From Amia ocellicauda (lineage: Eukaryota; Chordata; Actinopteri; Amiiformes; Amiidae), in the NCBI RefSeq assembly GCF_036373705.1, contig NC_089860.1, forward strand, positions 36,734,921 through 36,798,920: DNA of 64,000 nt, read 5' to 3'. The notes under the pieces are model-generated. The model searched no databases. It was not told the origin of the DNA and saw only the letters and a program-made list of their open reading frames with translations. Position numbers and translations under genes: made by a program. This document shows, piece after piece, positions 1,913 to 45,558 of this stretch; within the stretch, counting starts at the first letter, position 1; every line of letters starts with the position of its first letter.

Positions 1913-4900
1913 ATGGATTTGAAGTCGATGTTGCCATACACTGTCCCTGGAGCTGTGCTGGCGGCTGTCGCGTGGCAGTGCTACAAGACACCCCAAAACA
2001 AAAACAAAGTGGAAGATTCTGCAGGTGGGTCATAAACCTTAGAATTGTTTCATCATCTCTTTGTCTAATGCTATTGCTTGTGTTGTAAAGAAGACTCTGA
2101 ACCTTCCTGTACCATTGCCAACAAGTCTAGCTAATTACACCTTGCAAAACAAAATTAAACATACAAAGGTCCATTACTTGTCCACCATCTTTAGTCTCCA
2201 CCTTACAAGAGTTTCCTGTCAATTGCTCTTGCTCCTCCAAGTCTTAAAATTTGAAACATCCTTCTGCAGCACCTTGCACACAATCAGTGAACAGTCTTCA
2301 TGTGTAACTGCAAATTAGTGCTGTCAAAAAGCTTTTGTTTTTAAGATGAAAACAGGGTTTTTACTTTTGTACAACCCAAATGTTAGCACAATGCATATCA
2401 AATGTTCAACAGTCTCATTATGGTGTCTTGGTGGTGTGTGTGTAGAATTTATTAATCTGAACTCTCCAGCACAGGTGGCAGAGGGGACCACGGAGGTCTG
2501 ATGCCAGAGCTCAGCAGCTCAGTAAGGGCCAGGTCAGCTCAGGCTGCATGTGGTGAATGTAGCTGGGACAGTGCACACTCCCCTGCTTCACTAGCCTATG
2601 TGGAAATGTGCCCCCCCCACGCCTGTGTCATGCTTCAGGGCAGAGCGGGGCCCTGAAGCTTTGTGTTGACTGTACACTGTGTTGTTTGCAGGCTCCGATG
2701 TGCAGACCATGCCAGCAGAGGAGATCGCCGGCTGCGCCAGCCAAGCCACACGGGCGCAGACACCAGATCCCAACATCCAGGAGGCCATGGTTCCCAAGGT
2801 GAGAACGTCTGAAGGGAGGCCAGAGAATCTGTGGACGGCTAGAAGGGAAACTGACGCTTAGGAGATTGAGGGGGAATCAGGCTGCTTCACTGGGGAGCTC
2901 ACTGCCTAACCTTCCCATGTTGAAACCCAGGCTATTGTCAGTACCCCAGGCTACTAGAGGCTGGTGAAGAGGTAGTGGTGCCACCTGATCCACAGGCTGG
3001 GGATGAGGTGTGTAGCCAAGATACACAATAATAGCTTGACTGGAGAGAGAAGCAGAAGACTCAGTGCATTCAGGACTGTGACACCCTTTTGTGTGCGTCT
3101 GTCTGGTGTATGTCAGCTGTAATTGTGTGTCTCCGTGTGTGTCTGTCCATCCACAGGAGGAGCTCTGCACACTGCAAAAGAGCCATGATGAAGCCCTGGA
3201 GACAGTGCGCGCCATGGAGGGCCAGCTGGAGACCCTCCAACGTGACATGAATGAATTGCGGCTCACCCTACAAAACGCAGAAGAGAACAGGAGCATGGTA
3301 AGGAGGGCAGGGCTGTATCCTTGCAATCATCATTTCACTGTATTTTAGGCCGTACAGAAGATGTTGGTATATGCCACAATGTGTTTGAAGACTAGTATAG
3401 TCCTATACTATAGTTTTATGGATATTGTCCAACCCTAATGGTGAGAGAATCTCTCCTCACAGGCCCTCACACTCTCTATCTAACTCTGATTAAGCTCTTC
3501 TCGGTTGGAGCAAAAATCAAGTTGAGAGTTTTATCCCTGATATGTAATATAAAGGTCAAATCAGCTGTTTTGGAATCCAGCAGTGTGTGGAACGGGTCTG
3601 TTCCCTTGTGTTGCAGGAGCTGCAGAGACACAGGCAGGAGAAGATGGAGCTGGAGGCTCAAGTCTGCGCTCATCAGGACAAAGAGACGCTCAGGAGGGTG
3701 AGTACCGAAGGTTTCTGGTGATTTTGGTGTGTCCAGCGCAGCCCCGGATTCCCACAGTTAAAGTTATCGTTTAAGAAAACAAACCAGGAAAAACATCACA
3801 AATGTTACAAGTTACCTCAAGGGCCTGGATGATTCTCAGTATAAATATAATAGTGTGACGGGGTGGGGTTGGGCAGAGGTCCCCGGCAGACAAGCGGGAC
3901 CCCCCGTTTCATCCCACACAAAGCAACCTTCCATATAACTCCTGGGACTACGCCACCTTTAGGTTTATTATGGTGAGGGGAAACCCCTTACTATCCCACG
4001 TAACATGCAGTCGCCCACAGAGCCACCATGGACAGAATCAAATACACAATGTTTATTCATGATACACATTGAGACCAGATCCACATTTGCCTCATTCAAA
4101 AGGGAAAACAAATACTTGATACTCAACGAAAACACACAAACAATACAATCATACATCCATCTTCATAACCACTTATCCATGTGGGTCGAGGGGGACGCCA
4201 GAGCTGAACCCAGCAAACATAGTTCGCAAGGTGGGAATACACCCAGGATGGGACACCAGTCCATTGCTGGGCACACACACACACAGGACAAATTAGTGTG
4301 GCCAATCAACCTAACCAGCACATCTTTGGATGGGGGGAGAACATACAAACTCCACACAGACAGACACCCTGAGCCGATACTCGAACCCAGGACCCCTGGA
4401 GCTGTGAGGCAGGAGCACTAACCACCACACCACCATGCCACCCTACAACCATACATAGAAAACGAAATCCTTAGATTATTAAAAACACTCCTTCCCTTTC
4501 TTACGATAATGAGACTCAAGACAGACATACAAACTAAAGAGATCCCGTTTCCCTTCAGCTCCCTCCCTTTTCTCTTCATTCAGAGACCTTTAAGCCGTCC
4601 TTCCTTCGCCCCCTCCATGGCTTCCTTTAGAATCCAGTGTCCACATAATAAGCAGTCCGTCTCATTCCGCCAGTGCAGCAAAGTCCAGGCACGGCACCCA
4701 CAGAGCCACCAGTAAATACAGCGCTTATTTCCCACCCGCATCTTCTAACAGCCCGATAACTACGACATGCTCCAATACAACTCTCCACATTGCCAAGGCC
4801 GCGCCATTTGACTACAGCACGCAGGGGAGGCCCGAGCTGTACCATGGCACTGTACTCTGCTTCCAGTCGCTCTCCTCGGAGCCCCCCGCCGACTATCCTG

Positions 4901-7900
4901 AATACATATAGCAATGTCCACTCAACTCTGGACAGTGCATCAAACTCCGTCTCGGGTCTCGGTTCTCGGGTCCCCATGATACACGGAAGGGGGGCGGCAA
5001 CCACCGATTTCAACCTTTCCATACGGCAGGCTGCCGCACACACCTGTCACTTCCACATCTCCCGATCTCTGAACTCTCTCTCAGCCCCTGCTTTTGAATC
5101 CGGGTCTCTCACGCAGAGGGGACGCCTCCCAATTCAAAATCCAGTGTGTGTGCAGTTAGATGATTTCTTTAAATCAATAATTAGTTAAATACACACGTGT
5201 TAACGCAATCATGGAGGAAAACAATAAAATAACTAAGGCACTTTTGCGCAATCAAAATAATCAACACAACAACCAAAAAAAACAAAGCCCTTTTACCTCC
5301 TGTGACACTAGCTTGGCTGGAGAGGAAAGCAGAAGACTCAGTGCGTTCAGGACTGTGACACCCTTTTGTGTGCGTCTGTCTGGTGTATGTCAGCTGTAAT
5401 TGTGTGTCTCTGTGTGTGTCTGTCCATCCACAGGAGGAGCTCTGCACACTGCATGAGAGACTTAGTGAAGCCCTGGCGAAAGCGTATGTCATGGAGAGTC
5501 GGTGGGAAACCCTTCAATTTGACATGACTGAATTGCGGCTCACCCTGGAGAACGCAGAAGAGGACAGGAGCATAGTAAGGAGGGCAGGGCTGTATCCTTG
5601 CCATCATCATTTCACTGTATTTTAGGCCGTACAGAAGATGTTGGTATATGCCACAATGTGTTTGAAGACTAGTATAGTCCTATACTACAGTTTTATGGAC
5701 ATTGTCCAACCCTAATGGTGAGAGAATCTCTCCTCACAGGCCCTCACACTCTCTATCTAACTCTGATTAAGCTCTTCTCGGTTGGAGCAAAAATCAAGTT
5801 GAGAGTTTTAACCCTGATATGTAATATAAAGGTCAAATCAGCTGTTTTGGAATCCAGCAGTGTGTGGAACGGGCCTGTTCCCTTGTGTTGCAGGAGCAGC
5901 AGAGACACAGGCAGGAGAAGATGGAGCTGGAGACTCGAGTCTGCGCTCTTCAGGACAAAGAGACGCTCAGGAAGGTGAGTATCGAAGGTGTCTGATGATT
6001 TTGGTGACACTGGACGGCCTGCCCGTCACTGACATCCCTTCTGTGTTCATAACTGGAGGGAGGTCTGTGTGTAATCCACACAGCCACCCATGTGTCCAGC
6101 GCAGCCCCGGGTTCCCACAGTTAAAGTTATTGTGTAAGAAAATAATAAACCAGGAAAAACATCACAAATGTTACAAGTTACCCCAAGGGCCTGGATCATT
6201 CTCAGTATAAATATAATAGCTTGGCTGCAGAGGAAAGCAGAAGACTCAGTGCATTCAGGACTGTGACACCCTTTTGTGTGCGTCTGTCTGGTGTATGTCA
6301 GCTGTAATTGTGTGTCTCCGTGTGTGTCTGTCCATCCACAGGAGGAGCTCTGCACACTGCAAAAGAGCTGTGATGAAGCCCTGGAGACAGTGCGCGCCAT
6401 GGAGGGTCAGCGGGAGACCCTGCTACGTCACATGGACGAATTGCGGCTCACCCTGCAAAACGCAGAAGAGGACAGGAGCATAGTAAGGAGGGCAGGGCTG
6501 TATCCTTGCCATCATCATTTCACTGTGTTTTATGCCGTACAGAAGATGTTGGTATATGCCACAATGTGTTTGAAGACTAGTATAGTCCTATACTATAGTT
6601 TTATGGACATTGTCCAACCCTAATGGCGAGAGAATCTCTCCTCACAGGCCCTCACACTCTCTATCTAACTCTGATTAAGCTCTTCTCGGTTGGAGCAAAA
6701 ATCAAGTTGAGAGTTTTAACCCTGATATGTAATATAAAGGTCAAATCAGCTGTTTTGGAATCCAGCAGTGTGTGGAACAGGCCTGTTCTCTTGTGTTGCA
6801 GGAGCTGCAGAGACACAGGCAGGAGAAGATGGAGCTGGAGGCTCAAGTCTGCGGTCTTCAGGACAAAGAGACGCTCAGGAAGGTGAGTATCGAAGGTTTC
6901 TGGTGATTTTGGTGTGTCCAGCGCAGCCCCGTATTCCCACAGTTAAAGTTATCGTGTAAGAAAACAAACCAGGAAAAACATCACAAATGTTACAAGTTAC
7001 CTCAAGGGCCTGGATGATTCTCAATATAAATATAATAGTGTGACGGGGTGGGGTTGGGCAGATGTCCCCGGCAGACAAGCGGGACCCTCCGTTTAATCCC
7101 ACACGAAGCAACCTTCCATATAACTCCTGGGACTACGCCACCTTAAGGTATATTATGTTGAGGGGAAACCCCTTACTATCCCAAGTAACATGCAGTTGCC
7201 CACAGAGCCACCATGGACATAATCAAATACACAATGTTTATTCATGATACACATTGAGACCAGATCCACATTTGCCTCATTCAAAAGGGAAAACAAATAC
7301 TTGATACTCAACGAAAACACACAAACAATACAACCACTTATCCATGTGGGTCGAGGGGGACGCCAGAGCTGATCCCAGCAAACATAGTGCACAAGGTGGG
7401 AATACACCCAGGATGGGACACCAGTCCATCACTGGGCACACACACTCACAGGACAAATTAGTGTGGCCAATCAACCTAACCAGCACATCTTTGGATGGGG
7501 GGAGGAAACCCACACGGGCACGGGGAGAACATACAAACTCCACACAGACAGACACCCTGAGCCGATACTTGAACCCAGGAACCTTGGAGCTATGAGGCAG
7601 GAGAACTAACCACCGCACCACCATGCCACCCTACAACCATACATAGAAAACGAAATCCTTAGATTATTAAAAACACTCCTTCCCTTTCTTACGATAATGA
7701 GACTCAAGACAGACATACAAACTAAATAGATCCCGTTTCCCTTCAGCTCCCTCCCTTTTCTCTTCATTCAGAGTCCTTTAAGCCGTCCTTCCTTCGCCCC
7801 CTCCATGGCTTCCTTTAGAATCCAGTGTCCACATAATAAGCAGTCCGTCTCATTCCGCCAGTGCAGCAAAGTCCAGGCACGGCACCCACAGAGCCACCAG

Positions 7901-10900
7901 TAAATACAGCGCTTATTTCCCACCCGCATCTTCTAACAGCCCGATAACTACGACATGCTCCAATACAACTCTCCACATTGCCAAGGCCGCGCCATTCGAC
8001 TACAGCACGAAGGGGAGGCCCGAGCTGTACCATGGCACTGTACTCTGCTTCCAGTCGCTCTCCTCGGAGCCCCCCGCCGACTGTCCTGAATACATATAGC
8101 AATGTCCACTCAACTCTGGACAGTGCATCAAACTCCGTCTCAGGTCTCGGGTCCCCATGATACACGGAAGGGGGGCGGCAACCACCGATTTCAACCTTTC
8201 CATACGGCAGGCTGCCGCACACACCTGTCACTTCCACATCTCCCGATCTCTGAACTCTCTCTCAGCCCCTCCTTTTGAATCCGGGGCTCTCACGCAGAGG
8301 GGACGCCTCCCAATTCAAAAACCAGTGTGTGTGCAGTTAGATGATTTCTTTAAATCAATAATTAGTTAAATACACACGTGTTAACGCAATCATGGAGGAA
8401 AACAACAAAATAACTAAGGCACTTTTGCGCAATCAAAATAATCAACACAACAACCAAAAAAAACAAAGCCCTGTTACCTCCTGTGACATTAGCTTGGCTG
8501 GAGAGGAAAGCAGAAGACTCAGTGCGTTCAGGACTGTGACACCCTTTTGTGTGCGTCTGTCTGGTGTATGTCAGCTGTAATTGTGTGTCTCTGTGTGTGT
8601 CTGTCCATCCACAGGAGGAGCTCTGCACACTGCATGAGAGCCTTAGTGAAGCCCAGGCGAAAGCGTATGTCATGGAGAGTCGGTGGGAAACCCTGCAATT
8701 TGACATGACTGAATTGCGGCTCACCCTGGAAAACTCAGAAGAGGACAGGAGCATAGTAAGGAGGGCAGGGCTGTATCCTTGCCATCATCATTTCACTGTA
8801 TTTTAGGCCGTACAGAAGATGTTGGTATATGCCACAATGTGTTTGAAGACTAGTATAGTCCTATACTACAGTTTTATGGACATTGTCCAACCCTAATGGT
8901 GAGAGAATCTCTCCTCACAGGCCCTCACACTCTCTATCTAACTCTGATTAAGCTCTTCTCGGTTGGAGCAAAAATCAAGTTGAGAGTTTTAACCCTGATA
9001 TGTAATATAAAGGTCAAATCAGCTGTTTTGGAATCCAGCAGTGTGTGGAACGGGCCTGTTCCCTTGTGTTGCAGGAGCAGCAGAGACACAGGCAGGAGAA
9101 GATGGAGCTGGAGGCTCGAGTCTGCGCTCTTCAGGACAAAGAGACGCTCAGGAAGGTGAGTATCGAAGGTGTCTGATGATTTTGGTGACACTGGACGGCC
9201 TGCCCGTCACTGACATCCCTTCTGTGTTCATAACTGGAGGGAGGTCTGTGTGTAATCCACACAGCCACCCATGTGTCCAGCGCAGCCCCGGATTCCCACA
9301 GTTTAAGTTATTGTGTAAGAAAATACTAAACCAGGAAAAACATCACAAATGTTACAAGTTACCCCAAGGGCCTGGATGATTCTCCGTATAAATATAATAG
9401 CTTGGCTGGAGAGGAAAGCAGAAGACTCAGTGCATTCAGGACTGTGACACCCTTTTGTGTGCGTCTGTCTGGTGTATGTCAGCTGTAATTGTGTGTCTCC
9501 GTGTGTGTCTGTCCATCCACAGGAGGAGCTCTGCACACTGCAAAAGAGCTGTGATGAAGCCCTGGAGACAGTGCGCGCCATGGAGGGTCAGCGGGAGACC
9601 CTGCTACGTGAAATGGACGAATTGCGGCTCACCCTACAAAACGCAGAAGAGGACAGGAGCATAGTAAGGAGGGCAGGGCTGTATCCTTGCCATCATCATT
9701 TCACTGTATTTTAGGCCGTACAGAAGATGTTGGTATATGCCACAATGTGTTTGAAGACTAGTATAGTCCTATACTATAGTTTTATGGACATTGTCCAACC
9801 CTAATGGTGAGAGAATCTCTCCTCACAGGCCCTCACACTCTCTATCTAACTCTGATTAAGCTCTTCTCGGTTGTAGCAAAAATCAAATTGATAGTTTTAA
9901 CCCTGATATGTAATATAAAGGTCAAATCAGCCGTTTTGGAATCCAGCAGTGTGTGGAACGGGCCTGTTCTCTTGTGTTGCAGGATCTGCAGAGACACAGG
10001 CAGGAGAAGATGGAGCTGGAGGCTCAAGTCTGCGCTCATCAGGACAAAGAGACGCTCAGGAGGGTGAGTACCGAAGGTTTCTGGTGATTTTGGTGTGTCC
10101 AGCGCAGCCCCGGATTCCCACAGTTAAAGTTATCGTGTAAGAAAACAAACTAGGAAAAACATCACAAATGTTACAAGTTACCTCAAGGGCCTGGATGATT
10201 CTCAGTATAAATATAATAGTGTGACGGGGTGGGGTTGGGCAGAGGTCCCCGGCAGACAAGCGGGACCCCCCGTTTAATCCCACACGAAGCAACCTTCCAT
10301 ATAACTCCTGGGACTACGCCACCTTTAGGTATATTATGTTGAGGGGAAACCCCTTACTATCCCAAGTAACATGCAGTTGCCCACAGAGCCACCATGGACA
10401 GAATCACATACACAATGTTTATTCATGATACACATTGAGACCAGATCCACATTTGCCTCATTCAAAAGGGAAAACAAATACTTGATACTCAACGAAAACA
10501 CACAAACAATACAACCACTTATCCATGTGGGTCGAGGGGGACACCAGAGCTGATCCCAGCAAACATAGTGCACAAGGTGGGAATACACCCAGGATGGGAC
10601 ACCAGTCCATCACTGGGCACACACACTCACAGGACAAATTAGTGTGGCCAATCAACCTAACCAGCACATCTTTGGATGGGGGGAGGAAACCCACACGGGT
10701 ACGGGGAGAACATACAAACTCCACACAGACAGACACCCTGAGCCGATACTTGAACCCAGGAACCTTGGAGCTATGAGGCAGGAGCACTAACCACCGCACC
10801 ACCATGCCACCCTACAGCCATACATAGAAAACGAAATCCTTAGATTATTAAAAACACTCCTTCCCTTTCTTACGATAATGAGACTCAAGACAGACATACA

Positions 10901-13900
10901 AACTAAAGAGATCCCGTTTCCCTTCAGCTCCCTCCCTTTTCTCTTCATTCAGAGTCCTTTAAGCCGTCCTTCCTTCGCCCCCTCCATGGCTTCCTTTAGA
11001 ATCCAGTGTCCACATAATAATCAGTCCGTCTCATTCCGCCAGTGCAGCAAAGTCCAGGCACGGCACCCACAGAGCCACCAGTAAATACAGCGCTTATTTC
11101 CCACCCGCATCTTCTAACAGCCCGATAACTACGACATGCTCCAATACAACTCTCCACATTGCCAAGGCCGCGCCATTCGACTACAGCACGCAGGGGAGGC
11201 CCGAGCTGTACCATGGCACTGTACTCTGCTTCCAGTCGCTCTCCTCGGAGCCCCCCGCCGACTGTCCTGAATACATATAGCAATGTCCACTCAACTCTGG
11301 ACAGTGCATCAAACTCCGTCTCGGGTCCCCATGATACACGGAAGGGGGGCGGCAACCACCGATTTCAACCTTTCCATACGGCAGGCTGCCGCACACACCT
11401 GTCACTTCCACATCTCCCGATCTCTGAACTCTCTCTCAGCCCCTCCTTTTGAATCCGGGGCTCTCACGCAGAGGGGACGCCTCCCAATTCAAAAACCAGT
11501 GTGTGTGCAGTTAGATGATTTCTTTAAATCAATAATTAGTTAAATACACACGTGTTAACGCAATCATGGAGGAAAACAATAAAATAACTAAGGCACTTTT
11601 GCGCAATCAAAATAATCAACACAACAACCAAAAAAAACAAAGCCCTGTTACCTCCTGTGACACTAGCTTGGCTGGAGAGGAAAGCAGAAGACTCAGTGCA
11701 TTCAGGACTGTGACACCCTTTTGTGTGCGTCTGTCTGGTGTATGTCAGCTGTAATTGTGTGTCTCTGTGTGTGTCTGTCCATCCACAGGAGGAGCTCTGC
11801 ACACTGCATGAGAGCCTTAGTGAAGCCCTGGCGAAAGAGTATGTCATGGAGGGTCGGTGGGAAACCCTGCAATTTGACATGGACGAATTGCGGCTCACCC
11901 TGAAAGAAGAGGAAGAGGAGAAGTGTCAGGCCCTCAGGGATACTGCTTTGATGAGCATGGTAAGGAGGGCAGGGCTGTATCCTTGCCATCATCATTTCAC
12001 TGTATTTTAGGCCGTACAGAAGATGTTGGTATATGCCACAATGTGTTTGAAGACTAGTATAGTCCTATACTATAGTTTTATGGACATTGTCCAACCCTAA
12101 TGGCGAGAGAATCTCTCCTCACAGGCCCTCACACTCTCTATCTAACTCTGATTAAGCTCTTCTCGGTTGGAGCAAAAATCAAGTTGAGAGCTTTAACCCT
12201 GATATTTAATATAAAGGTCAAATCAGCTGTTTTGGAATCCAGCAGTGTGTGGAACGGGCCTGTTCTCTTGTGTTGCAGGAGCTGCAGAGACACAGGCAGG
12301 GGAAGATGGAGCTGGAGGCTCAAGTCTGCGCTCTTCAGGACAAAGAGACGCTCAGGAAGGTCAGTACCGAAGGTGTCTGGTGATTTTGGTGACACTGGAC
12401 GGCCTGCCCGTCACTGACATCCCTTCTGTGTTTATAACTGGAGGGAGGTCTGTGTGTAATCCACACAGCCACCCATGTGTCCAGCGCAGCCCCGGATTCC
12501 CACAGTTAAAGTTATTGTGTAAGAGAATAATAAACCAGGAATAACATCACAAATATTACAAGTTACCCCAAGGGCCTGGATGATTCTCCGTATAAATATA
12601 ATAGCTTGGCTGGAGAGGAAAGCAGAAGACTCAGTGCATTCAGGACTGTGACACCCTTTTGTGTGCGTCTGTCTGGTGTATGTCAGCTTTAATTGTGTGT
12701 CTCCGTGTGTGTCTGTCCATCCACAGGAGGAGCTCTGCACACTGCAAAAGAGCTGTGATGAAGCCCTGGAGACAGTGCGCGTCATGGAGGGTCAGCGGGA
12801 GACCCTGCTACGTGACATGGACGAATTGCGGCTCACCCTGGAAGAAGAGGAAGAGGAGAAGTGTCAGGCTCTCAGGGATACTGCTTTGATGAGCATGGTA
12901 AGGAGGGCAGGGCTGTATCCTTGCCATCATCATTTCACTGTATTTTAGGCCGTACAGAAGATGTTGGTATATGCCACAATGTGTTTGAAGACTAGTATAG
13001 TCCTATACTATAGTTTTATGGACATTGTCCAACCCTAATGGCGAGAGAATCTCTCCTCACAGGCCCTCACACTCTCTATCTAACTCTGATTAAGCTCTTC
13101 TCGGTTGGAGCAAAAATCAAGTTGAGAGTTTTAACCCTGATATGTAATATAAAGGTCAAATCAGCTGTTTTGGAATCCAGCAGTGTGTGGAACGGGCCTG
13201 TTCTCTTGTGTTGCAGGAGCTGAAGAGACACAGGCAGGGGAAGATGGAGCTGGAGGCTCAAGTCTGCGCTCTTCAGGAAAAAGAGACGCTCAGGAAGGTG
13301 AGTACCGAAGGTGTCTGGTGATTTTGGTGACACTGGACGGCCTGCCCGTCACTGACATCCCTTCTGTGTTTATAACTGGAGGGAGGTCTGTGTGTTATCC
13401 ACACAGCCACCCATGTGTCCAGCGCAGCCCCGGATTCCCACAGTTTAAGTTATTGTGTAAGAGAATAATAAACCAGGAAAAACATCACAAATGTTACAAG
13501 TTACCCCAAGGGCCTGGATGATTCTCCGTATAAATATAATAGCTTGGCTGGAGAGGAAAGCAGAAGACTCAGTGCATTCAGGACTGTGACACCCTTTTGT
13601 GTGCGTCTGTCTGGTGTATGTCAGCTTTAATTGTGTGTCTCCGTGTGTGTCTGTCCATCCACAGGAGGAGCTCTGCACACTGCAAAAGAGCTGTGATGAA
13701 GCCCTGGAGACAGTGCGCGCCATGGAGGGTCAACGGGAGACCCTGCTACGTGACATGGACGAATTGCGGCTCACCCTGCAAAACGCAGAAGAGGACAGGA
13801 GCATAGTAAGGAGGGCAGGGCTGTGTCCTTGCCAACATCTTTTCACTGTATTTTAGGTCGTTCAGAAGATGTTGGTATATGCCACAATGTGTTTGATGAC

Positions 13901-14847: not shown

Positions 14848-14913
14848 TCGCTTACATTAATTTTTTGGGGAGACATTAACACTTTACAATAGATCACCCA
14901 AATTAATTTTATA

Positions 14914-16169: not shown

Positions 16170-16181
16170 AAAATGAAAGGA

Positions 16182-16187
16182 AATAAA
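16182..16187 (+). terminator. Candidate poly(A) signal of gene 1, unit 1
   Basis: AATAAA just beyond the right end of the palindrome, and the first I noticed after the stop codon at 14847. It implies a 3' UTR that contains the whole palindrome. Unproven. Confidence 0.4.
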
Positions 16188-16189
16188 GT

Positions 16190-18240: not shown

Positions 18241-18340
18241 ATTAAAATAAATCAGTCAGTCTCGGATAATAAGCACTGATCGAGTCCGGCGGTGTGGGCC
18301 GACTGGTACCAACCCGCGCCCGGCACCTCAGTCCTGCGCG

Positions 18341-23838: not shown

Positions 23839-23897
23839 GTCTCGTGCCTCTGGTCAGTCAGCCTCTCAGCAGTGGACGGGGTGTAATGCCTTAATGG

Positions 23898-26274: not shown

Positions 26275-26366
26275 CTGGTGTGATGGTGGCCAGTGTCTCA
26301 AAGGGGAAACGACTCTCTGCCAGTTTATACTCAAACCCTGGCTGCTGCTCCGCTGGCCGCTCACTG

Positions 26367-27686: not shown

Positions 27687-27721
27687 ACATTATATATATA
27701 TTATATATTATTATTATTATT

Positions 27722-27763
<42 letters not shown>
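27687..27763. repeat. (ATT)n/(AAT)n microsatellite, unit 2
   Basis: Same locus as the unit 1 microsatellite, with fewer ATT and AAT units. Confidence 0.9.
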
Positions 27764-27764
<1 letters not shown>

Positions 27765-28071: not shown

Positions 28072-28380
28072 ATAAAAACGTTGTTAAAATGACCCATGTT
28101 CTAACTTTAACATTCAACTTTGACATTTAGTGCATTCACGCACAAGGCTATTCAGCATGTCTTATAGAAAGGCGTCCAATGACGCTGTACAGTATATAAA
28201 CATAGAAGCAAACGGATATTTTTATTTTATGATGGCCGTGCTCTTTATGATTCGTAATAGATGTAAATTACGACCTTTGAGTGATACATAATTTCCGTGT
28301 GGGTTTAAATTGTAATTTATTCTATTATATGTTTAAAACGCTATTATCAGTGTGCTGTAAGGCATCGAGGTCTTTGTTAC

Positions 28381-28429
28381 GTCATGTATTCGAAACAGGG
28401 CATTGCGTCTTTTCGCCATTATGACGTCA
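28381..28429 (+). promoter_or_regulatory. Two CRE-like sites upstream of gene 1, unit 2
   Basis: Same arrangement as unit 1, with TGACGTCA at 28422-28429 and the upstream ACGTCA half site kept. Confidence 0.5.
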
Positions 28430-28509
28430 TGGTGGTTCTCGAACACCTTAGACTATAAGTTTGTGAGCACAGCTAATACTCATACTAAATGTGCTACTGT
28501 CCAGTGAAG

Positions 28510-34500: not shown

Positions 34501-37500
34501 AATACAGCGCTTATTTCCCACCCGCATCTTCTAACAGCCCGATAACTACGACATGCTCCAATACAACTCTCCACATTGCCAAGGCCGCGCCATTCGACTA
34601 CAGCACGAAGCGGAGGCCCGAGCTGTACCATGGCACTGTACTCTGCTTCCAGTCGCTCTCCTCGGAGCCCCCCGCCGACTGTCCTGAATACATATAGCAA
34701 TGTCCACTCAACTCTGGACAGTGCATCAAACTCCGTCTCGGGTCTCGGGTCTCGGGTCACCATGATACACGGAAGGGGGGCGGCAACCACCGATTTCAAC
34801 CTTTCCATACGGCAGGCTGCCGCACACACCTGTCACTTCCACATCTCCCGATCTCTGAACTCTCTCTCAGCCCCTCCTTTTGAATCCGGGGCTCTCACGC
34901 AGAGGGGACGCCTCCCAATTCAAAAACCAGTGTGCGTGCAGTTAGATGATTTCTTTAAATCAATAATTAGTTAAATACACACGTGTTAACGCAATCATGG
35001 AGGAAAACAACAAAATAACTAAGGCACTTTTGCGCAATCAAAATAATCAACACAACAACCAAAAAAAACAAAGCCCTGTTACCTCCTGTGACACTAGCTT
35101 GGCTGGAGAGGAAAGCAGAAGACTCAGTGCGTTCAGGACTGTGACACCCTTTTGTGTGCGTCTGTCTGGTGTATGTCAGCTATAATTGTGTGTCTCTGTG
35201 TGTGTCTGTCCATCCACAGGAGGAGCTCTGCACACTGCATGAGAGCCTTAGTGAAGCCCAGGCGAAAGCGTATGTCATGGAGAGTCGGTGGGAAACCCTG
35301 CAATTTGACATGACTGAATTGCGGCTCACCCTGGAAAACTCAGAAGAGGACAGGAGCATAGTAAGGAGGGCAGGGCTGTATCCTTGCCATCATCATTTCA
35401 CTGTATTTTAGGCCGTACAGAAGATGTTGGTATATGCCACAATGTGTTTGAAGACTAGTATAGTCCTATACTACAGTTTTATGGACATTGTCCAACCCTA
35501 ATGGTGAGAGAATCTCTCCTCACAGGCCCTCACACTCTCTATCTAACTCTGATTAAGCTCTTCTCGGTTGGAGCAAAAATCAAGTTGAGAGTTTTAACCC
35601 TGATATGTAATATAAAGGTCAAATCAGCTGTTTTGGAATCCAGCAGTGTGTGGAACGGGCCTGTTCCCTTGTGTTGCAGGAGCAGCAGAGACACAGGCAG
35701 GAGAAGATGGAGCTGGAGGCTCGAGTCTGCGCTCTTCAGGACAAAGAGACGCTCAGGAAGGTGAGTATCGAAGGTGTCTGATGATTTTGGTGACACTGGA
35801 CGGCCTGCCCGTCACTGACATCCCTTCTGTGTTCATAACTGGAGGGAGGTCTGTGTGTAATCCACACAGCCACCCATGTGTCCAGCGCAGCCCCGGATTC
35901 CCACAGTTTAAGTTATTGTGTAAGAAAATACTAAACCAGGAAAAACATCACAAATGTTACATGTTACCCCAAGGGCCTGGATGATTCTCCGTATAAATAT
36001 AATAGCTTGGCTGGAGAGGAAAGCAGAAGACTCAGTGCATTCAGGACTGTGACACCCTTTTGTGTGCGTCTGTCTGGTGTATGTCAGCTGTAATTGTGTG
36101 TCTCCGTGTGTGTCTGTCCATCCACAGGAGGAGCTCTGCACACTGCAAAAGAGCTGTGATGAAGCCCTGGAGACAGTGCGCGCCATGGAGGGTCAGCGGG
36201 AGACCCTGCTACGTGAAATGGACGAATTGCGGCTCACCCTGCAAAACGCAGAAGAGGACAGGAGCATAGTAAGGAGGGCAGGGCTGTATCCTTGCCATCA
36301 TCATTTCACTGTATTTTAGGCCGTACAGAAGATGTTGGTATATGCCACAATGTGTTTGAAGACTAGTATAGTCCTATACTATAGTTTTATGGACATTGTC
36401 CAACCCTAATGGTGAGAGAATCTCTCCTCACAGGCCCTCACACTCTCTATCTAACTCTGATTAAGCTCTTCTCGGTTGTAGCAAAAATCAAATTGATAGT
36501 TTTAACCCTGATATGTAATATAAAGGTCAAATCAGCCGTTTTGGAATCCAGCAGTGTGTGGAACGGGCCTGTTCTCTTGTGTTGCAGGATCTGCAGAGAC
36601 ACAGGCAGGAGAAGATGGAGCTGGAGGCTCAAGTCTGCGCTCATCAGGACAAAGAGACGCTCAGGAGGGTGAGTACCGAAGGTTTCTGGTGATTTTGGTG
36701 TGTCCAGCGCAGCCCCGGATTCCCACAGTTAAAGTTATCGTGTAAGAAAACAAACCAGGAAAAACATCACAAATGTTACAAGTTACCTCAAGGGCCTGGA
36801 TGATTCTCAGTATAAATATAATAGTGTGACGGGGTGGGGTTGGGCAGAGGTCCCTGGCAGACAAGCGGGACCCCCCGTTTAATCCCACACGAAGCAACCT
36901 TCCATATAACTCCTGGGACTACGCCACCTTTAGGTATATTATGTTGAGGGGAAACCCCTTACTATCCCAAGTAACATGCAGTTGCCCACAGAGCCACCAT
37001 GGACAGAATCACATACACAATGTTTATTCATGATACACATTGAGACCAGATCCACATTTGCCTCATTCAAAAGGGAAAACAAATACTTGATACTCAACGA
37101 AAACACACAAACAATACAACCACTTATCCATGTGGGTCGAGGGGGACGCCAGAGCTGATCCCAGCAAACATAGTGCACAAGGTGGGAATACACCCAGGAT
37201 GGGACACCAGTCCATCACTGGGCACACACACTCACAGGACAAATTAGTGTGGCCAATCAACCTAACCAGCACATCTTTGGATGGGGGGAGGAAACCCACA
37301 CTGGTACGGGGAGAACATACAAACTCCACACAGACAGACACCCTGAGCCGATACTTGAACCCAGGAACCTTGGAGCTATGAGGCAGGAGAACTAACCACC
37401 GCACCACCATGCCACCCTACAACCATACATAGAAAACGAAATCCTTAGATTATTAAAAACACTCCTTCCCTTTCTTACGATAATGAGACTCAAGACAGAC

Positions 37501-40500
37501 ATACAAACTAAAGAGATCCCATTTCCCTTCAGCTCCCTCCCTTTTCTCTTCATTCAGAGTCCTTTAAGCCGTCCTTCCTTCGCCCCCTCCATGGCTTCCT
37601 TTAGAATCCAGTGTCCACATAATAAGCAGTCCGTCTCATTCCGCCAGTGCAGCAAAGTCCAGGCACGGCACCCACAGAGCCACCAGTAAATACAGCGCTT
37701 ATTTCCCACCCGCATCTTCTAACAGCCCGATAACTACGACATGCTCCAATACAACTCTCCACATTGCCAAGGCCGCGCCATTCGACTACAGCACGAAGGG
37801 GAGGCCCGAGCTGTACCATGGCACTGTACTCTGCTTCCAGTCGCTCTCCTCGGAGCCCCCCGCCGACTGTCCTGAATACATATAGCAATGTCCACTCAAC
37901 TCTGGACAGTGCATCAAACTCCGTCTCGGGTCTCGGGTCCCCATGATACACGGAAGGGGGGCGGCAACCACCGATTTCAACCTTTCCATACGGCAGGCTG
38001 CCGCACACACCTGTCACTTCCACATCTCCCGATCTCTGAACTCTCTCTCAGCCCCTCCTTTTGAATCCGGGGCTCTCACGCAGAGGGGACGCCTCCCAAT
38101 TCAAAAACCAGTGTGTGTGCAGTTAGATGATTTCTTTAAATCAATAATTAGTTAAATACACACGTGTTAACGCAATCATGGAGGAAAACAACAAAATAAC
38201 TAAGGCACTTTTGCGCAATCAAAATAATCAACACAACAACCAAAAAAAACAAAACCCTGTTACCTCCTGTGACACTAGCTTGGCTGGAGAGGAATGCAGA
38301 AGACTCAGTGCGTTCAGGACTGTGACACCCTTTTGTGTGCGTCTGTCTGGTGTATGTCAGCTATAATTGTGTGTCTCTGTGTGTGTCTGTCCATCCACAG
38401 GAGGAGCTCTGCACACTGCATGAGAGCCTTAGTGAAGCCCAGGCGAAAGCGTATGTCATGGAGAGTCGGTGGGAAACCCTGCAATTTGACATGACTGAAT
38501 TGCGGCTCACCCTGGAAAACTCAGAAGAGGACAGGAGCATAGTAAGGAGGGCAGGGCTGTATCCTTGCCATCATCATTTCACTGTATTTTAGGCCGTACA
38601 GAAGATGTTGGTATATGCCACAATGTGTTTGAAGACTAGTATAGTCCTATACTACAGTTTTATGGACATTGTCCAACCCTAATGGTGAGAGAATCTCTCC
38701 TCACAGGCCCTCACACTCTCTATCTAACTCTGATTAAGCTCTTCTCGGTTGGAGCAAAAATCAAGTTGAGAGTTTTAACCCTGATATGTAATATAAAGGT
38801 CAAATCAGCTGTTTTGGAATCCAGCAGTGTGTGGAACGGGCCTGTTCCCTTGTGTTGCAGGAGCAGCAGAGACACAGGCAGGAGAAGATGGAGCTGGAGG
38901 CTCGAGTCTGCGCTCTTCAGGACAAAGAGACGCTCAGGAAGGTGAGTATCGAAGGTGTCTGATGATTTTGGTGACACTGGACGGCCTGCCCGTCACTGAC
39001 ATCCCTTCTGTGTTCATAACTGGAGGGAGGTCTGTGTGTAATCCACACAGCCACCCATGTGTCCAGCGCAGCCCCGGATTCCCACAGTTTAAGTTATTGT
39101 GTAAGAAAATACTAAACCAGGAAAAACATCACAAATGTTACAAGTTACCCCAAGGGCCTGGATGATTCTCCGTATAAATATAATAGCTTGGCTGGAGAGG
39201 AAAGCAGAAGACTCAGTGCATTCAGGACTGTGACACCCTTTTGTGTGCGTCTGTCTGGTGTATGTCAGCTGTAATTGTGTGTCTCCGTGTGTGTCTGTCC
39301 ATCCACAGGAGGAGCTCTGCACACTGCAAAAGAGCTGTGATGAAGCCCTGGAGACAGTGCGCGCCATGGAGGGTCAGCGGGAGACCCTGCTACGTGAAAT
39401 GGACGAATTGCGGCTCACCCTACAAAACGCAGAAGAGGACAGGAGCATAGTAAGGAGGGCAGGGCTGTATCCTTGCCATCATCATTTCACTGTATTTTAG
39501 GCCGTACAGAAGATGTTGGTATATGCCACAATGTGTTTGAAGACTAGTATAGTCCTATACTATAGTTTTATGGACATTGTCCAACCCTAATGGTGAGAGA
39601 ATCTCTCCTCACAGGCCCTCACACTCTCTATCTAACTCTGATTAAGCTCTTCTCGGTTGTAGCAAAAATCAAATTGATAGTTTTAACCCTGATATGTAAT
39701 ATAAAGGTCAAATCAGCCGTTTTGGAATCCAGCAGTGTGTGGAACGGGCCTGTTCTCTTGTGTTGCAGGATCTGCAGAGACACAGGCAGGAGAAGATGGA
39801 GCTGGAGGCTCAAGTCTGCGCTCATCAGGACAAAGAGACGCTCAGGAGGGTGAGTACCGAAGGTTTCTGATGATTTTGGTGTGTCCAGCGCAGCCCCGGA
39901 TTCCCACAGTTAAAGTTATCGTGTAAGAAAACAAACCAGGAAAAACATCACAAATGTTACAAGTTACCTCAAGGGCCTGGATGATTCTCAGTATAAATAT
40001 AATAGTGTGACGGGGTGGGGTTGGGCAGAGGTCCCCGGCAGACAAGCGGGACCCCCCGTTTAATCCCACACGAAGCAACCTTCCATATAACTCCTGGGAC
40101 TACGCCACCTTTAGGTATATTATGTTGAGGGGAAACCCCTTACTATCCCAAGTAACATGCAGTTGCCCACAGAGCCACCATGGACAGAATCACATACACA
40201 ATGTTTATTCATGATACACATTGAGACCAGATCCACATTTGCCTCATTCAAAAGGGAAAACAAATACTTGATACTCAACGAAAACACACAAACAATACAA
40301 CCACTTATCCATGTGGGTCGAGGGGGACGCCAGAGCTGATCCCAGCAAACATAGTGCACAAGGTGGGAATACACCCAGGATGGGACACCAGTCCATCACT
40401 GGGCACACACACTCACAGGACAAATTAGTGTGGCCAATCAACCTAACCAGCACATCTTTGGATGGGGGGAGGAAACCCACACGGGTACGGGGAGAACATA

Positions 40501-43500
40501 CAAACTCCACACAGACAGACACCCTGAGCCGATACTTGAACCCAGGAACCTTGGAGCTATGAGGCAGGAGAACTAACCACCGCACCACCATGCCACCCTA
40601 CAACCATACATAGAAAACGAAATCCTTAGATTATTAAAAACACTCCTTCCCTTTCTTACGATAATGAGACTCAAGACAGACATACAAACTAAAGAGATCC
40701 CGTTTCCCTTCAGCTCCCTCCCTTTTCTCTTCATTCAGAGTCCTTTAAGCCGTCCTTCCTTCGCCCCCTCCATGGCTTCCTTTAGAATCCAGTGTCCACA
40801 TAATAAGCAGTCCGTCTCATTCCGCCAGTGCAGCAAAGTCCAGGCACGGCACCCACAGAGCCACCAGTAAATACAGCGCTTATTTCCCACCCGCATCTTC
40901 TAACAGCCCGATAACTACGACATGCTCCAATACAACTCTCCACATTGCCAAGGCCGCGCCATTCGACTACAGCACGAAGGGGAGGCCCGAGCTGTACCAT
41001 GGCACTGTACTCTGCTTCCAGTCGCTCTCCTCGGAGCCCCCCGCCGACTGTCCTGAATACATATAGCAATGTCCACTCAACTCTGGACAGTGCATCAAAC
41101 TCCGTCTCGGGTCTCGGGTCCCCATGATACACGGAAGGGGGGCGGCAACCACCGATTTCAACCTTTCCATACGGCAGGCTGCCGCACACACCTGTCACTT
41201 CCACATCTCCCGATCTCTGAACTCTCTCTCAGCCCCTCCTTTTGAATCCGGGGCTCTCACGCAGAGGGGACGCCTCCCAATTCAAAAACCAGTGTGTGTG
41301 CAGTTAGATGATTTCTTTAAATCAATAATTAGTTAAATACACACGTGTTAACGCAATCATGGAGGAAAACAATAAAATAACTAAGGCACTTTTGCGCAAT
41401 CAAAATAATCAACACAACAACCAAAAAAAACAAAGCCCTGTTACCTCCTGTGACACTAGCTTGGCTGGAGAGGAAAGCAGAAGACTCAGTGCATTCAGGA
41501 CTGTGACACCCTTTTGTGTGCGTCTGTCTGGTGTATGTCAGCTGTATGTGTGTGTCTGTCCATCCACAGGAGGAGCTCTGCACACTGCATGAGAGCCTTA
41601 GTGAAGCCCTGGCGAAAGAGTATGTCATGGAGGGTCGGTGGGAAACCCTGCAATTTGACATGGACGAATTGCGGCTCACCCTGAAAGAAGAGGAAGAGGA
41701 GAAGTGTCAGGCCCTCAGGGATACTGCTTTGATGAGCATGGTAAGGAGGGCAGGGCTGTATCCTTGCCATCATCATTTCACTGTATTTTAGGCCGTACAG
41801 AAGATGTTGGTATATGCCACAATGTGTTTGAAGACTAGTATAGTCCTATACTATAGTTTTATGGACATTGTCCAACCCTAATGGCGAGAGAATCTCTCCT
41901 CACAGGCCCTCACACTCTCTATCTAACTCTGATTAAGCTCTTCTCGGTTGGAGCAAAAATCAAGTTGAGAGCTTTAACCCTGATATGTAATATAAAGGTC
42001 AAATCAGCTGTTTTGGAATCCAGCAGTGTGTGGAACGGGCCTGTTCTCTTGTGTTGCAGGAGCTGAACAGACACAGGCAGGGGAAGATGGAGCTGGAGGC
42101 TCAAGTCTGCGCTCTTCAGGACAAAGAGACGCTCAGGAAGGTCAGTACCGAAGGTGTCTGGTGATTTTGGTGACACTGGACGGCCTGCCCGTCACTGACA
42201 TCCCTTCTGTGTTTATAACTGGAGGGAGGTCTGTGTGTAATCCACACAGCCACCCATGTGTCCAGCGCAGCCCCGGATTCCCACAGTTAAAGTTATTGTG
42301 TAAGAGAATAATAAACCAGGAATAACATCACAAATATTACAAGTTACCCCAAGGGCCTGGATGATTCTCCGTATAAATATAATAGCTTGGCTGGAGAGGA
42401 AAGCAGAAGACTCAGTGCATTCAGGACTGTGACACCCTTTTGTGTGCGTCTGTCTGGTGTATATCAGCTTTAATTGTGTGTCTCCGTGTGTGTCTGTCCA
42501 TCCACAGGAGGAGCTCTGCACACTGCAAAAGAGCTGTGATGAAGCCCTGGAGACAGTGCGCGCCATGGAGATTCAGCGGGAGACCCTGCTACGTGACATG
42601 GACGAATTGCGGCTCACCCTGAAAGAAGAGGAAGAGGAGAAGTGTCAGGCTCTCAGGGATACTGCTTTGATGAGCATGGTAAGGAGGGCAGGGCTGTATC
42701 CTTGCCATCATCATTTCACTGTATTTTAGGCCGTACAGAAGATGTTGGTATATGCCACAATGTGTTTGAAGACTAGTATAGTCCTATACTATAGTTTTAT
42801 GGACATTGTCCAACCCTAATGGCGAGAGAATCTCTCCTCACAGGCCCTCACACTCTCTAACTCTGATTAAGCTCTTCTCGGTTGGAGCAAAAATCAAGTT
42901 GAGAGCTTTAACCCTGATATGTAATATAAAGGTCAAATCAGCTGTTTTGGAATCCAGCAGTGTGTGGAACGGGCCTGTTCTCTTGTGTTGCAGGAGCTGA
43001 ACAGACACAGGCAGGGGAAGATGGAGCTGGAGGCTCAAGTCTGCGCTCTTCAGGACAAAGAGACGCTCAGGAAGGTGAGTACCGAAGGTGTCTGGTGATT
43101 TTGGTGACACTGGACGGCCTGCCCGTCACTGACATCCCTTCTGTGTTTATAACTGGAGGGAGGTCTGTGTGTAATCCACACAGCCACCCATGTGTCCAGC
43201 ACAGCCCCGGATTCCCACAGTTAAAGTTATTGTGTAAGAGAATAATAAACCAGGAAAAACATCACAAATGTTACAAGTTCCCCCAAGGGCCTGGATGATT
43301 CTCCGTATAAATATAATAGCTTGGCTGGAGAGGAAAGCAGAAGACTCAGTGCATTCAGGACTGTGACACCCTTTTGTGTGCGTCTGTCTGGTGTATGTCA
43401 GCTTTAATTGTGTGTCTCCGTGTGTGTCTGTCCATCCACAGGAGGAGCTCTGCACACTGCAAAAGAGCTGTGATGAAGCCCTGGAGACAGTGCGCGCCAT

Positions 43501-45558
43501 GGAGGGTCAGCGGGAGACCCTGCTACGTGACATGGACGAATTGCGGCTCACCCTGGAAGAAGAGGAAGAGGAGAAGTGTCAGGCTCTCAGGGATACTGCT
43601 TTGATGAGCATGGTAAGGAGGGCAGGGCTGTATCCTTGCCATCATCATTTCACTGTATTTTAGGCCGTACAGAAGATGTTGGTATATGCCACAATGTGTT
43701 TGAAGACTAGTATAGTCCTATACTATAGTTTTATGGACATTGTCCAACCCTAATGGCGAGAGAATCTCTCCTCACAGGCCCTCACACTCTCTAACTCTGA
43801 TTAAGCTCTTCTCGGTTGGAGCAAAAATCAAGTTGAGAGCTTTAACCCTGATATGTAATATAAAGGTCAAATCAGCTGTTTTGGAATCCAGCAGTGTGTG
43901 GAACGGGCCTGTTCTCTTGTGTTGCAGGAGCTGAACAGACACAGGCAGGGGAAGATGGAGCTGGAGGCTCAAGTCTGCGCTCTTCAGGACAAAGAGACGC
44001 TCAGGAAGGTGAGTACCGAAGGTGTCTGGTGATTTTGGTGACACTGGACGGCCTGCCCGTCACTGACATCCCTTCTGTGTTTATAACTGGAGGGAGGTCT
44101 GTGTGTAATCCACACAGCCACCCATGTGTCCAGCACAGCCCCGGATTCCCACAGTTAAAGTTATTGTGTAAGAGAATAATAAACCAGGAAAAACATCACA
44201 AATGTTACAAGTTCCCCCAAGGGCCTGGATGATTCTCCGTATAAATATAATAGCTTGGCTGGAGAGGAAAGCAGAAGACTCAGTGCATTCAGGACTGTGA
44301 CACCCTTTTGTGTGCGTCTGTCTGGTGTATGTCAGCTTTAATTGTGTGTCTCCGTGTGTGTCTGTCCATCCACAGGAGGAGCTCTGCACACTGCAAAAGA
44401 GCTGTGATGAAGCCCTGGAGACAGTGCGCGCCATGGAGGGTCAACGGGAGACCCTGCTACGTGACATGGACGAATTGCGGCTCACCCTGCAAAACGCAGA
44501 AGAGGACAGGAGCATAGTAAGGAGGGCAGGGCTGTGTCCTTGCCAACATCTTTTCACTGTATTTTAGGTCGTTCAGAAGATGTTGGTATATGCCACAATG
44601 TGTTTGATGACTAGTATAGTCCTATACTATAGTTTTATGGACATTGTCCAACCCTAATGGTGAGAGAATCTCTCCTCACAGGCCTTCACACTCTCTATCT
44701 AACTCTGATTAAGCTCTTCTCGGTTGGAGCAAAAATCAAGTTGAGAGTTTTAACCCTGATATGTAATATAAAGGTCAAATCAGCTGTTTTGGAATCCAGC
44801 AGTGTGTGGAACGGGTCTGTTCTCTTGTGTTGCAGGAGCTGCAGAGACACAGGCAGGAGAAGATGGAGCTGGAGGCTCAAGTCTGCGCTCTTCAGGACAA
44901 AGAGACGCTCAGGAAGGTGAGTATCGAAGGTGTCTGGTGATTTTGGTGACACTGGACAGCCTGCCCGTCACTGACATCCCTTTTGTGTTCATAACTGGAG
45001 GGAGGTCTGTGTGTAATCCACACAGCCACCCATGTGTCCAGCGCAGCCCCGGATTCCCACAGTTAAAGTTATTGTGTAAGAAAATAATAAACCAGGAAAT
45101 ACATCACAAATGTTATAAGTTACCCCAAGGGCCTGGATGATTCTCAGTATAAATATAATAGCTTGGCTGGAGAGGAAAGCAGAAGACTCAGTGTGTTCAT
45201 GGAGGGTCAGTTGGAGACCATGCAATATGAGATGGACGAATTGGGGGTCATGCTGGAGGAGCAGCAGGCTGATGCCTACTGGGAAGCTGCTGACATGAGC
45301 AGGGTTAGGAGAGAAACCCTGATTTTCCTGACAGTCCTACCCCACTGTAATGGACCAGCCCGTTTCTGAGCCTTTTTTACTCGAGTTGACTGAGCGTTCA
45401 CACTTCAACAACTGTCCTATTTTTCTATTCTGTAGGAGCAGAGCAGCGATGAGGAGAGTGCGACGGGAGAGTGGTGGGAGAGAAGGAAGGCAAGCTTTTG
45501 CCAACAGAAACATGGCGAGGCCTTCCAAGTGCTCAATATGCAGGGGTCAAATGCCTGA
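28510..45558 (+). CDS. Gene 1 copy 2: N-anchored coiled-coil protein, expanded to 11 exon pairs
   Basis: Same gene as copy 1. Exon 1 is 28510-28621 and exon 2 is 29289-29395. A exons: 29754-29894, 32033-32173, 32941-33081, 35220-35360, 36128-36268, 38401-38541, 39309-39449, 41570-41740, 42508-42678, 43442-43612, 44376-44516. B exons: 30214-30294, 32493-32573, 33401-33481, 35680-35760, 36588-36668, 38861-38941, 39769-39849, 42060-42140, 42994-43074, 43928-44008, 44836-44916. The last exon is 45436-45558. The joined frame is open for about 957 aa, some 230 residues longer than copy 1. The extra pairs are one higher-order repeat (32941-35760 duplicates the first module) and one single module (42508-43074 and 43442-44008 are almost identical). 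Exon 1 carries Asp where copy 1 has Glu near its end (VDDS versus VEDS). Three A exons are the long 57-codon form. Confidence 0.65.
30451..31906 (-). mobile_element. Solo LTR in gene 1 intron, unit 2 copy 1
   Basis: Same LTR. Shares CTTTAAGCTGTCC near 31190 with unit 2 copy 2, where units 1 and 3 read AAGCCG. Confidence 0.6.
30748..31043 (-). mobile_element. tRNA-derived SINE nested in the LTR, unit 2 copy 1
   Basis: Long-tail form as in unit 1 copy 1, but with the AACCTTGGAGCTATGAGG variant of the short-tail copies, so it looks mosaic. Confidence 0.65.
33638..35093 (-). mobile_element. Solo LTR in gene 1 intron, unit 2 copy 2
   Basis: Same LTR, in the extra higher-order repeat of unit 2. 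Its SINE-side half is like copy 1 and its other half like copies 3 and 4. Confidence 0.6.
33935..34230 (-). mobile_element. tRNA-derived SINE nested in the LTR, unit 2 copy 2
   Basis: Near-identical to unit 2 copy 1. Confidence 0.65.
36825..38274 (-). mobile_element. Solo LTR in gene 1 intron, unit 2 copy 3
   Basis: Same LTR and insertion site, with the nested SINE. Confidence 0.6.
37118..37418 (-). mobile_element. tRNA-derived SINE nested in the LTR, unit 2 copy 3
   Basis: Short-tail form. Confidence 0.65.
40006..41455 (-). mobile_element. Solo LTR in gene 1 intron, unit 2 copy 4
   Basis: Same LTR and insertion site, with the nested SINE. Confidence 0.6.
40299..40600 (-). mobile_element. 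tRNA-derived SINE nested in the LTR, unit 2 copy 4
   Basis: Short-tail form. Confidence 0.65.
42508..44916 (+). repeat. Gene 1 single exon-pair modules, unit 2 (three copies)
   Basis: A9-B9, A10-B10 and A11-B11 with exact 934-base periods. The first two are almost identical to each other, including a shared small deletion in the A-to-B intron (CTCTCTAACTC instead of CTCTCTATCTAACTC). That marks a very recent single-module duplication. A9 and A10 are long, A11 is short. Confidence 0.9.
45199..45303 (+). pseudogene. Damaged terminal A exon of gene 1, unit 2
   Basis: Same deletion as in unit 1. It differs by two coding changes (DELGVMLEE versus DELRVMLQE). Confidence 0.6.

Follow-up and report, generated by a model that had tools for sequence, protein, structure and literature searches.

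The 64,000-nt stretch of bowfin (Amia ocellicauda) DNA analysed here, referred to below as the window, holds two complete copies of a gene and the start of a third, each assembled from repeated pairs of small exons, A and B. The explanation that we favour, with a probability of roughly 55%, is a tandem array of a spliced protein-coding gene whose introns are homogenised by gene conversion, whose A exons are kept as two types by selection, and whose product is a predicted helical rod. Near-identical duplicates occur at three levels, namely single pairs, two-pair blocks and whole 27-31 kb gene units, an arrangement far beyond what chance would produce.

Gene copies and exon structure

Scripted exon finding and splicing gave 8 A-B pairs, 19 exons and 725 residues for gene 1 (1913-14847, plus strand), and 11 pairs, 25 exons and 957 residues for gene 2 (28510-45558, plus strand). 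Gene 3 runs from 59774 past the window end, with two pairs inside the window (Table 1). The 21 A exons measure 141 or 171 nt and the 21 B exons 81 nt, that is 47 or 57 and 27 codons, so that a pair encodes 74 or 84 residues. Each of these exons is in phase 0 at both ends, free of stops and bounded by GT/AG sites, with a weaker GTCAGT donor at one B exon each in genes 1 and 2. Exons 1 and 2 total 219 nt and also end in phase 0. Because the A and B exons are in phase 0, the frame is kept at any pair number. No splice site in genes 1-3 is broken, and the two last exons are likewise intact. A further A-exon remnant, whose 5' part and acceptor are gone, lies ahead of the last exon; its gene 2 copy is left out of NCBI's model.

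A preliminary description of this locus had proposed a coiled-coil gene array built from phase-0 exon pairs, with 8 versus 11 pairs and 725 versus 957 residues, joined as A-B-A-B. The open exons and the spliced models bear out the array and its counts. The splicing order agrees with the public record: our gene 2 model equals residues 8-964 of NCBI P0001, 'trichohyalin-like [Amia ocellicauda]', letter for letter, and is already public as an NCBI protein. P0001 has seven more residues at its N terminus (MCYCPVK) because its start is placed 21 nt further upstream, at another ATG in the same frame.

Table 1. Exons, exon pairs and putative solo LTRs of the three gene copies (positions in the window)
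Feature	Position	Strand	Remarks
Gene 1 exon 1	1892..2024	+	ATG 1913; in-frame upstream ATG (choice of NCBI's gene 2 model) here 1892
Gene 1 exon 2	2692..2798	+	107 nt
Gene 1 pair 1, type I	3157..3697	+	A 3157-3297, B 3617-3697
Putative solo LTR, gene 1 B1-A2 intron	3854..5307		TG...CA ends
Gene 1 pair 2, type II	5434..5974	+	A 5434-5574, B 5894-5974
Gene 1 pair 3, type I	6342..6882	+	A 6342-6482, B 6802-6882
Putative solo LTR, gene 1 B3-A4 intron	7039..8488		
Gene 1 pair 4, type II	8615..9155	+	A 8615-8755, B 9075-9155
Gene 1 pair 5, type I	9523..10063	+	A 9523-9663, B 9983-10063
Putative solo LTR, gene 1 B5-A6 intron	10220..11662		
Gene 1 pair 6, type II	11789..12359	+	Long 171-nt A 11789-11959, B 12279-12359, donor GTCAGT
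Gene 1 pair 7, type I	12727..13297	+	Long A 12727-12897, B 13217-13297
Gene 1 pair 8, type I	13665..14205	+	A 13665-13805, B 14125-14205
Gene 1 A-exon remnant	14488..14592	+	Without 5' part and acceptor
Gene 1 last exon	14725..14847	+	With stop codon
Gene 2 exon 1	28489..28621	+	ATG 28510; in-frame upstream ATG 28489
Gene 2 exon 2	29289..29395	+	
Gene 2 pair 1, type I	29754..30294	+	A 29754-29894, B 30214-30294
Putative solo LTR, gene 2	30451..31906		
Gene 2 pair 2, type II	32033..32573	+	A 32033-32173, B 32493-32573
Gene 2 pair 3, type I	32941..33481	+	A 32941-33081, B 33401-33481
Putative solo LTR, gene 2	33638..35093		
Gene 2 pair 4, type II	35220..35760	+	A 35220-35360, B 35680-35760
Gene 2 pair 5, type I	36128..36668	+	A 36128-36268, B 36588-36668
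Putative solo LTR, gene 2	36825..38274		
Gene 2 pair 6, type II	38401..38941	+	A 38401-38541, B 38861-38941
Gene 2 pair 7, type I	39309..39849	+	A 39309-39449, B 39769-39849
Putative solo LTR, gene 2	40006..41455		
Gene 2 pair 8, type II	41570..42140	+	Long A 41570-41740, B 42060-42140, donor GTCAGT
Gene 2 pair 9, type I	42508..43074	+	Long A 42508-42678, B 42994-43074
Gene 2 pair 10, type I	43442..44008	+	Long A 43442-43612, B 43928-44008
Gene 2 pair 11, type I	44376..44916	+	A 44376-44516, B 44836-44916
Gene 2 A-exon remnant	45199..45303	+	
Gene 2 last exon	45436..45558	+	With stop codon
Gene 3 exon 1	59753..59885	+	ATG 59774; in-frame upstream ATG 59753
Gene 3 exon 2	60553..60659	+	
Gene 3 pair 1, type I	61018..61558	+	A 61018-61158, B 61478-61558
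Putative solo LTR, gene 3	61715..63168		
Gene 3 pair 2, type II	63295..63835	+	A 63295-63435, B 63755-63835; gene leaves window

Duplication at three levels

Pairs with no insert between them are spaced 908, 934 or 938 bp apart, and single pairs at 934-938 bp stand near the 3' end of each complete gene. Two-pair blocks, made of a type II and a type I pair and measured from one type II start to the next, span 3169-3187 bp and carry one TG...CA insert each, and the gene starts lie 26,597 and 31,264 bp apart. The three levels had been recognised in the preliminary description and hold at high identity: 99.68% for the extra single pair of gene 2 (pair 9 against pair 10), 99.56% for its extra two-pair block (pairs 4-5 against 6-7), and 98.4-99.5% between gene copies over their longest aligned blocks. 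Pairs 2-3 of genes 1 and 2 are only 96.6% identical, so that this block too has been reshaped. The difference in pair number may reflect gain in gene 2, as the 'growing' of the preliminary description implies, or loss in gene 1.

The insert is about 1.45 kb long, has TG...CA ends and sits at the identical position in all eight introns that bear it; of its flanks, only 'TAG' is repeated on both sides. The two-pair repeat of about 3.18 kb described earlier thus stands, and the solo LTR that it was said to carry is a plausible identity for the insert.

Sequence common to the regions upstream of genes 1, 2 and 3 is already present at the window start before gene 1, so the array probably continues outside the window, which is itself free of N. 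The 5' gene ends (28510-29753 against 1913-3156 and 59774-61017) are far more alike than the repeats: copies differ at 0-1 of 667 nt in intron 1 and at 1-2 of 358 nt in intron 2. This likeness suggests that there may have been recent conversion or selection at the 5' end.

Sequences copied with the gene unit

Both complete units include further sequence between the genes. A cluster of three snoRNAs, SNORD103/85, SNORA44 and SNORD99, is found at 21179-22233 and 51888-52942 (plus strand). In human, SNHG12 hosts SNORA44 and SNORD99 (PMC5223416), and the locus of an SNHG12-type snoRNA host appears to have undergone tandem duplication together with the repeat gene. A strongly G-rich, C-poor minisatellite of 1.9 kb, with a 5-bp core and higher periods of 26/31/57 bp, occupies 23897-25755 and 54606-56490; three overlapping minus-strand ORFs of 637-678 residues in its first copy are probably meaningless. 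Pieces with reverse-transcriptase (RVT_1) and DDE_3 transposase domains, by a domain scan that covered those of the first unit, lie between the genes at 18648-19103 and 19835-20578, with copies at 49358-49813 and 50545-51288. Directly downstream of genes 1 and 2 (15114-15911 and 45825-46622) is a fragment with inverted halves, which by our reading would be Tc1-like; one ORF of it was scanned and had no Pfam match.

Two types of A exon between near-identical introns

The A exons fall into two types, I and II, a distinction absent from the preliminary description. They alternate from the 5' end of both complete genes, in the order I-II-I-II-I-II-I-I in gene 1 and I-II-I-II-I-II-I-II-I-I-I in gene 2. 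Averaged over the 104 I-II pairs among the 21 repeats, the types differ by 20.0% in the A exon and 5.3% in the B exon; for the A-B intron the mean is 1.9%, and for the 125 bp ahead of A it is 2.6%. In a profile of 20-bp bins the main peak of 35% falls mid exon A and wholly inside it, and the bins of the A-B intron and of the intron ahead of A all lie between 0 and 5.5%. Exon A is not quite the only divergent part: the first 30 bp after B average 7.9%, and the two downstream-edge bins of the profile right after B stand at 7-8%. Variable columns free of gaps number 45 among the 141 of exon A, against 33 among the 428 of the flanking introns (P=1.6e-11); in B there are 12 among 81, a marginal excess over the introns (P=0.053).

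The eight insert-bearing introns differ from one another by 0.4-2.3% over all 28 comparisons. The introns of type I and type II repeats thus resemble each other no less than copies of one insert-bearing intron do. The I/II split must predate the amplification of the two-pair block. Introns usually diverge more than exons; the opposite contrast between these repeats suggests that two kinds of module in the protein have been kept different. In the literature search no other case came up in which one exon holds most of the divergence and the introns around it are almost identical; such a case may still have been described.

Exchange between repeats

The repeats have exchanged tracts, some of which end inside exon A. 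A tails are short or long (by 30 nt), and both kinds accompany both types, 10 short and 3 long among the 13 type I exons and 6 short and 2 long among the 8 of type II; tracts exchanged between types therefore end inside exon A. In a four-gamete test without gapped columns, all four combinations occur at 477 of the 2701 site pairs, part of which could come from repeated mutation; 185 of the 477 lie within exon A, 97 join exon A to the A-B intron and 13 lie within the A-B intron.

The A remnant is still alignable to the A exons, and the 125 nt that follow it match the A-B intron no better than shuffled sequence does. In this single case, then, a diverged A is accompanied by an intron that can no longer be recognised; this intron may have been replaced rather than decayed. 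The intron ahead of the remnant is identical at 265 of 276 positions to the intron after pair 6. The contrast between exons and introns fits gene conversion that homogenises introns and leaves exon centres distinct.

Tests for selection on the repeats

In the first 114 nt of A the two types show 16 fixed nucleotide differences in 12 codons, and the residue is changed in 11 of the 12. By NG86, comparisons of type I with type II give a mean dN of 0.23-0.27 and a dS of 0.19 in A (ratio means 1.2-1.4), and 0.068 and 0.005 in B (ratio 13.9); for A exons compared within types the ratio means are 0.4-0.8. Between-type omega is 1.2-3.5, with replacements dominating, and is seldom significantly above 1. 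A simpler fit found omega different from 1 at 0.05 in one of five repeat pairs, and a within-type codon fit of A+B placed omega below 1 in four of six pairs and above 1 in two, none significantly.

A joint fit of exons and introns, with kappa fixed at 3, covered eight I-II pairs out of the 104; the pairs fitted have a common history. All eight reject neutral divergence at the rate of the introns (P 4e-8 to 2e-12), and such neutrality is excluded for exon A. Six of them also reject, at 0.05, one clock shared by introns and exon synonymous sites, and two do not; fitted with that shared clock, omega between types is 7-15, and with free exon and intron clocks it differs from 1 at 0.05 in two of the eight.

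Among variable columns, 30 are replacement-only and 6 silent-only when the 10 in multiply hit codons are excluded (P=0.13 against neutrality). Adding the A remnant (8 to 1, counted by eye) brings this to P=0.06. The B exons alone have 11 replacement-only columns to 1 silent-only. None of 49 minimum changes is a nonsense change where about 2 were expected, a deficit with P 0.10-0.14, and neither this nor within-type omega (none of six pairs) gives a significant signal of purifying selection on the repeats. Exons 1, 2 and the last are nearly unchanged between copies, as are introns 1 and 2, so these exons carry no sign of constraint.

The preliminary description had held that a dN/dS near 1 between repeats, as a sign of no protein-level constraint, would refute its reading. 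Such ratios are found in part, 1.2-1.4 between types and 0.4-0.8 within them, with no within-type test significant; exon A, however, differs far more than its introns, so plain neutrality does not explain it. Selection that maintains two A types would be the best reading of these comparisons.

The predicted product

When the gene 1 protein was scanned against Pfam with matches admitted to E=1, exons 1-2 (73 residues) and the last exon matched no family. One match, TraI-like_C (E=5e-8), was the sole one above its curated cut-off; together with five weaker ones it was judged to be noise from helical composition, since different families matched different stretches and none fell on exons 1-2 or the last exon. 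A PDB search with two pairs reached a best E of 0.51.

The gene 2 repeats contain no proline. Of the 844 residues in these repeats, 505 have a coiled-coil score of P>0.5. The mean over 40 shuffles is 410 and the maximum 544, so that much of the score can be put down to composition. The score dips at the B-A junctions and in the long type II module. A test for heptad period, with shuffles drawn from 6 of the 12 unique pairs, found 174 of 500 shuffles to be as good. At the N terminus the best 19-residue Kyte-Doolittle mean is 1.15, and the usual transmembrane cut-off is 1.6. Of the N-anchored coiled coil of adjustable length envisaged in the preliminary description, the predicted helical rod of adjustable length is reasonable; a coiled coil is plausible, at a score inside the range of the shuffles; and membrane anchoring is only a possibility, given so weak a hydrophobic stretch.

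Relatives and known systems

The homology searches that the preliminary description had called for, on exons 1-2 and the last exon, were run against protein and Pfam collections and found no relative outside bowfin and no family. With exons 1-2 plus the last exon as query, none of 36 candidates of 184-586 residues matched, and among 89 candidates of 490-1557 residues only the bowfin protein did; with gene 1 as query, it was alone among 8000 candidates listed. These searches need shared 5-residue words, and a fast-evolving gar relative could be missed by them. The 725-residue product of gene 1 is itself absent from the matches although it was the query, the gene 2 product alone being returned, so the annotation of the array may be incomplete. 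The literature search found no paper on this gene, and the main text of the bowfin genome paper uses 'trichohyalin' and 'tandem' 0 times (PMC8423624).

Assignment to trichohyalin, NBPF, LPA or BG was considered and rejected, the defining domains of each being unmatched in the Pfam scan up to E=1. Trichohyalin has Glu/Arg/Gln-rich, probably helical repeats, as does the bowfin protein. It also has an N-terminal S100/EF-hand part, and its repeats are coded in one large exon; the bowfin repeats, in contrast, are spread over 16 and 22 exons, and no S100/EF-hand match was found at E=1. Kringles, the disulphide-bonded folded units of LPA, are likewise unmatched in the gene 1 protein up to E=1, as are Olduvai (DUF1220) and Ig domains.

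The preliminary description was mistaken in stating that no named gene family has this arrangement, since NBPF/Olduvai and LPA KIV-2 are precedents. NBPF20 has two-exon repeat units in higher-order repeats whose copies are about 1% apart, the monomers within them differing by 17-19% (PMC9584774), and NBPF comprises 23 genes (PMC13028154). The two-exon monomer, the higher-order tandem repeats and the several gene copies are shared with bowfin, but the higher-order repeat is a 2-mer of 0.9-kb monomers in bowfin and a 3-mer of 1.6-kb monomers in NBPF. Divergence in bowfin lies mostly in one exon between nearly identical introns, a pattern that may also hold in NBPF. In human LPA the KIV-2 unit, two exons in 5.5 kb, is present in 1 to >40 copies, and gene conversion has been considered as a source of its variants (PMC4378929). 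LPA shares with bowfin a two-exon unit in variable number and differs in being a single gene with a larger unit. The chicken BG genes form a tandem family whose cytoplasmic, presumably coiled-coil tail comes from 13 to 36 small repeated exons (PMC4046983); these exons, of 21-24 nt, follow Ig-V and transmembrane exons, unlike the 141/171-nt A and 81-nt B exons here. The arrangement is thus already known (NBPF, LPA, BG), and the bowfin gene resembles these genes in how length changes.

Competing explanations

Could rapid diversifying selection alone account for the pattern? The pairs would then be young, at about 2% neutral divergence, their A exons would have raced apart, and conversion would have no special role. 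The excess of exon A, and marginally of B, over the introns agrees with this, as do the residue changes in 11 of 12 fixed codons, the shared-clock omega of 7-15 and, in B, the 11:1 columns and the ratio of 13.9. However, an exon A that evolved fast only since 2% divergence would have synonymous sites matching the introns, and its synonymous divergence lies above the intron value, the shared clock being rejected in 6 of 8 pairs though not in 2. A number of codons have been hit two or three times, which is a lot at 2% divergence, and tail kinds have been recombined between A types. We consider this account unlikely. The same grade seems right for a neutral or relaxed repeat, possibly a dying or never-functional gene, that expands, stays open by chance and on one occasion received its A block through a short conversion tract from a diverged paralogue. 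Its dN/dS would be compatible with 1, as in most tests, and the nonsense deficit is not beyond chance; no relatives were found, the gene 2 product alone being returned among the candidates listed; and by a rough hand estimate a divergent block of about 110 bp inside a 141-bp exon of a unit of about 740 bp is not very improbable. The near-identity of exons 1, 2 and the last among the copies is matched by that of introns 1 and 2, and so is no mark of constraint. This account sits poorly with the 42 of 42 intact A and B exons, both intact last exons and intact splice sites throughout the three copies, and with an I/II alternation that both complete genes retain.

Alternative haplotypes or mis-joined reads placed end to end by the assembly would be a very improbable source of the array. 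Copies 98.4-99.5% identical are the kind of repeat that assemblers mishandle, and scaffolding of the published AmiCal1 assembly of bowfin drew on shotgun, Chicago and Hi-C data (PMC8423624). The window, however, contains no N, the copies differ by whole repeat blocks, and gene 1 is preceded at the window start by the sequence that also precedes genes 2 and 3, which is what a true array would show.

Under the favoured reading, a spliced gene array with conversion-homogenised introns and selected A types, unequal exchange would have made the pair, block and gene duplicates, and the I/II split would be older than the present introns. Gene conversion would even out the introns and, to a lesser degree, the B exons. 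The centre of A would escape because selection keeps two helical modules distinct and alternating, with mismatches that block conversion probably helping. The product would be a mostly helical rod with its length set by the number of pairs, at 74 or 84 residues each. A further step, on which the gene is specific to bowfin, conversion erases intron differences and selection keeps the alternating helices as a two-letter code of a length that varies from one neighbouring gene to the next, diversifying as in host-parasite or gamete conflict, is tentative and rather doubtful.

Implications

The closest precedents found for exon-pair amplification with higher-order repeats, NBPF and LPA, are from primates, and an unrelated case in a fish, with three duplication levels inside 64 kb, would suggest a general process. 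Divergence in one exon between homogenised introns also acts as an internal control, in that the introns report exchange and the exons report what escapes it. With this contrast one can test which of the two, selection or conversion mechanics, holds the repeat types apart.
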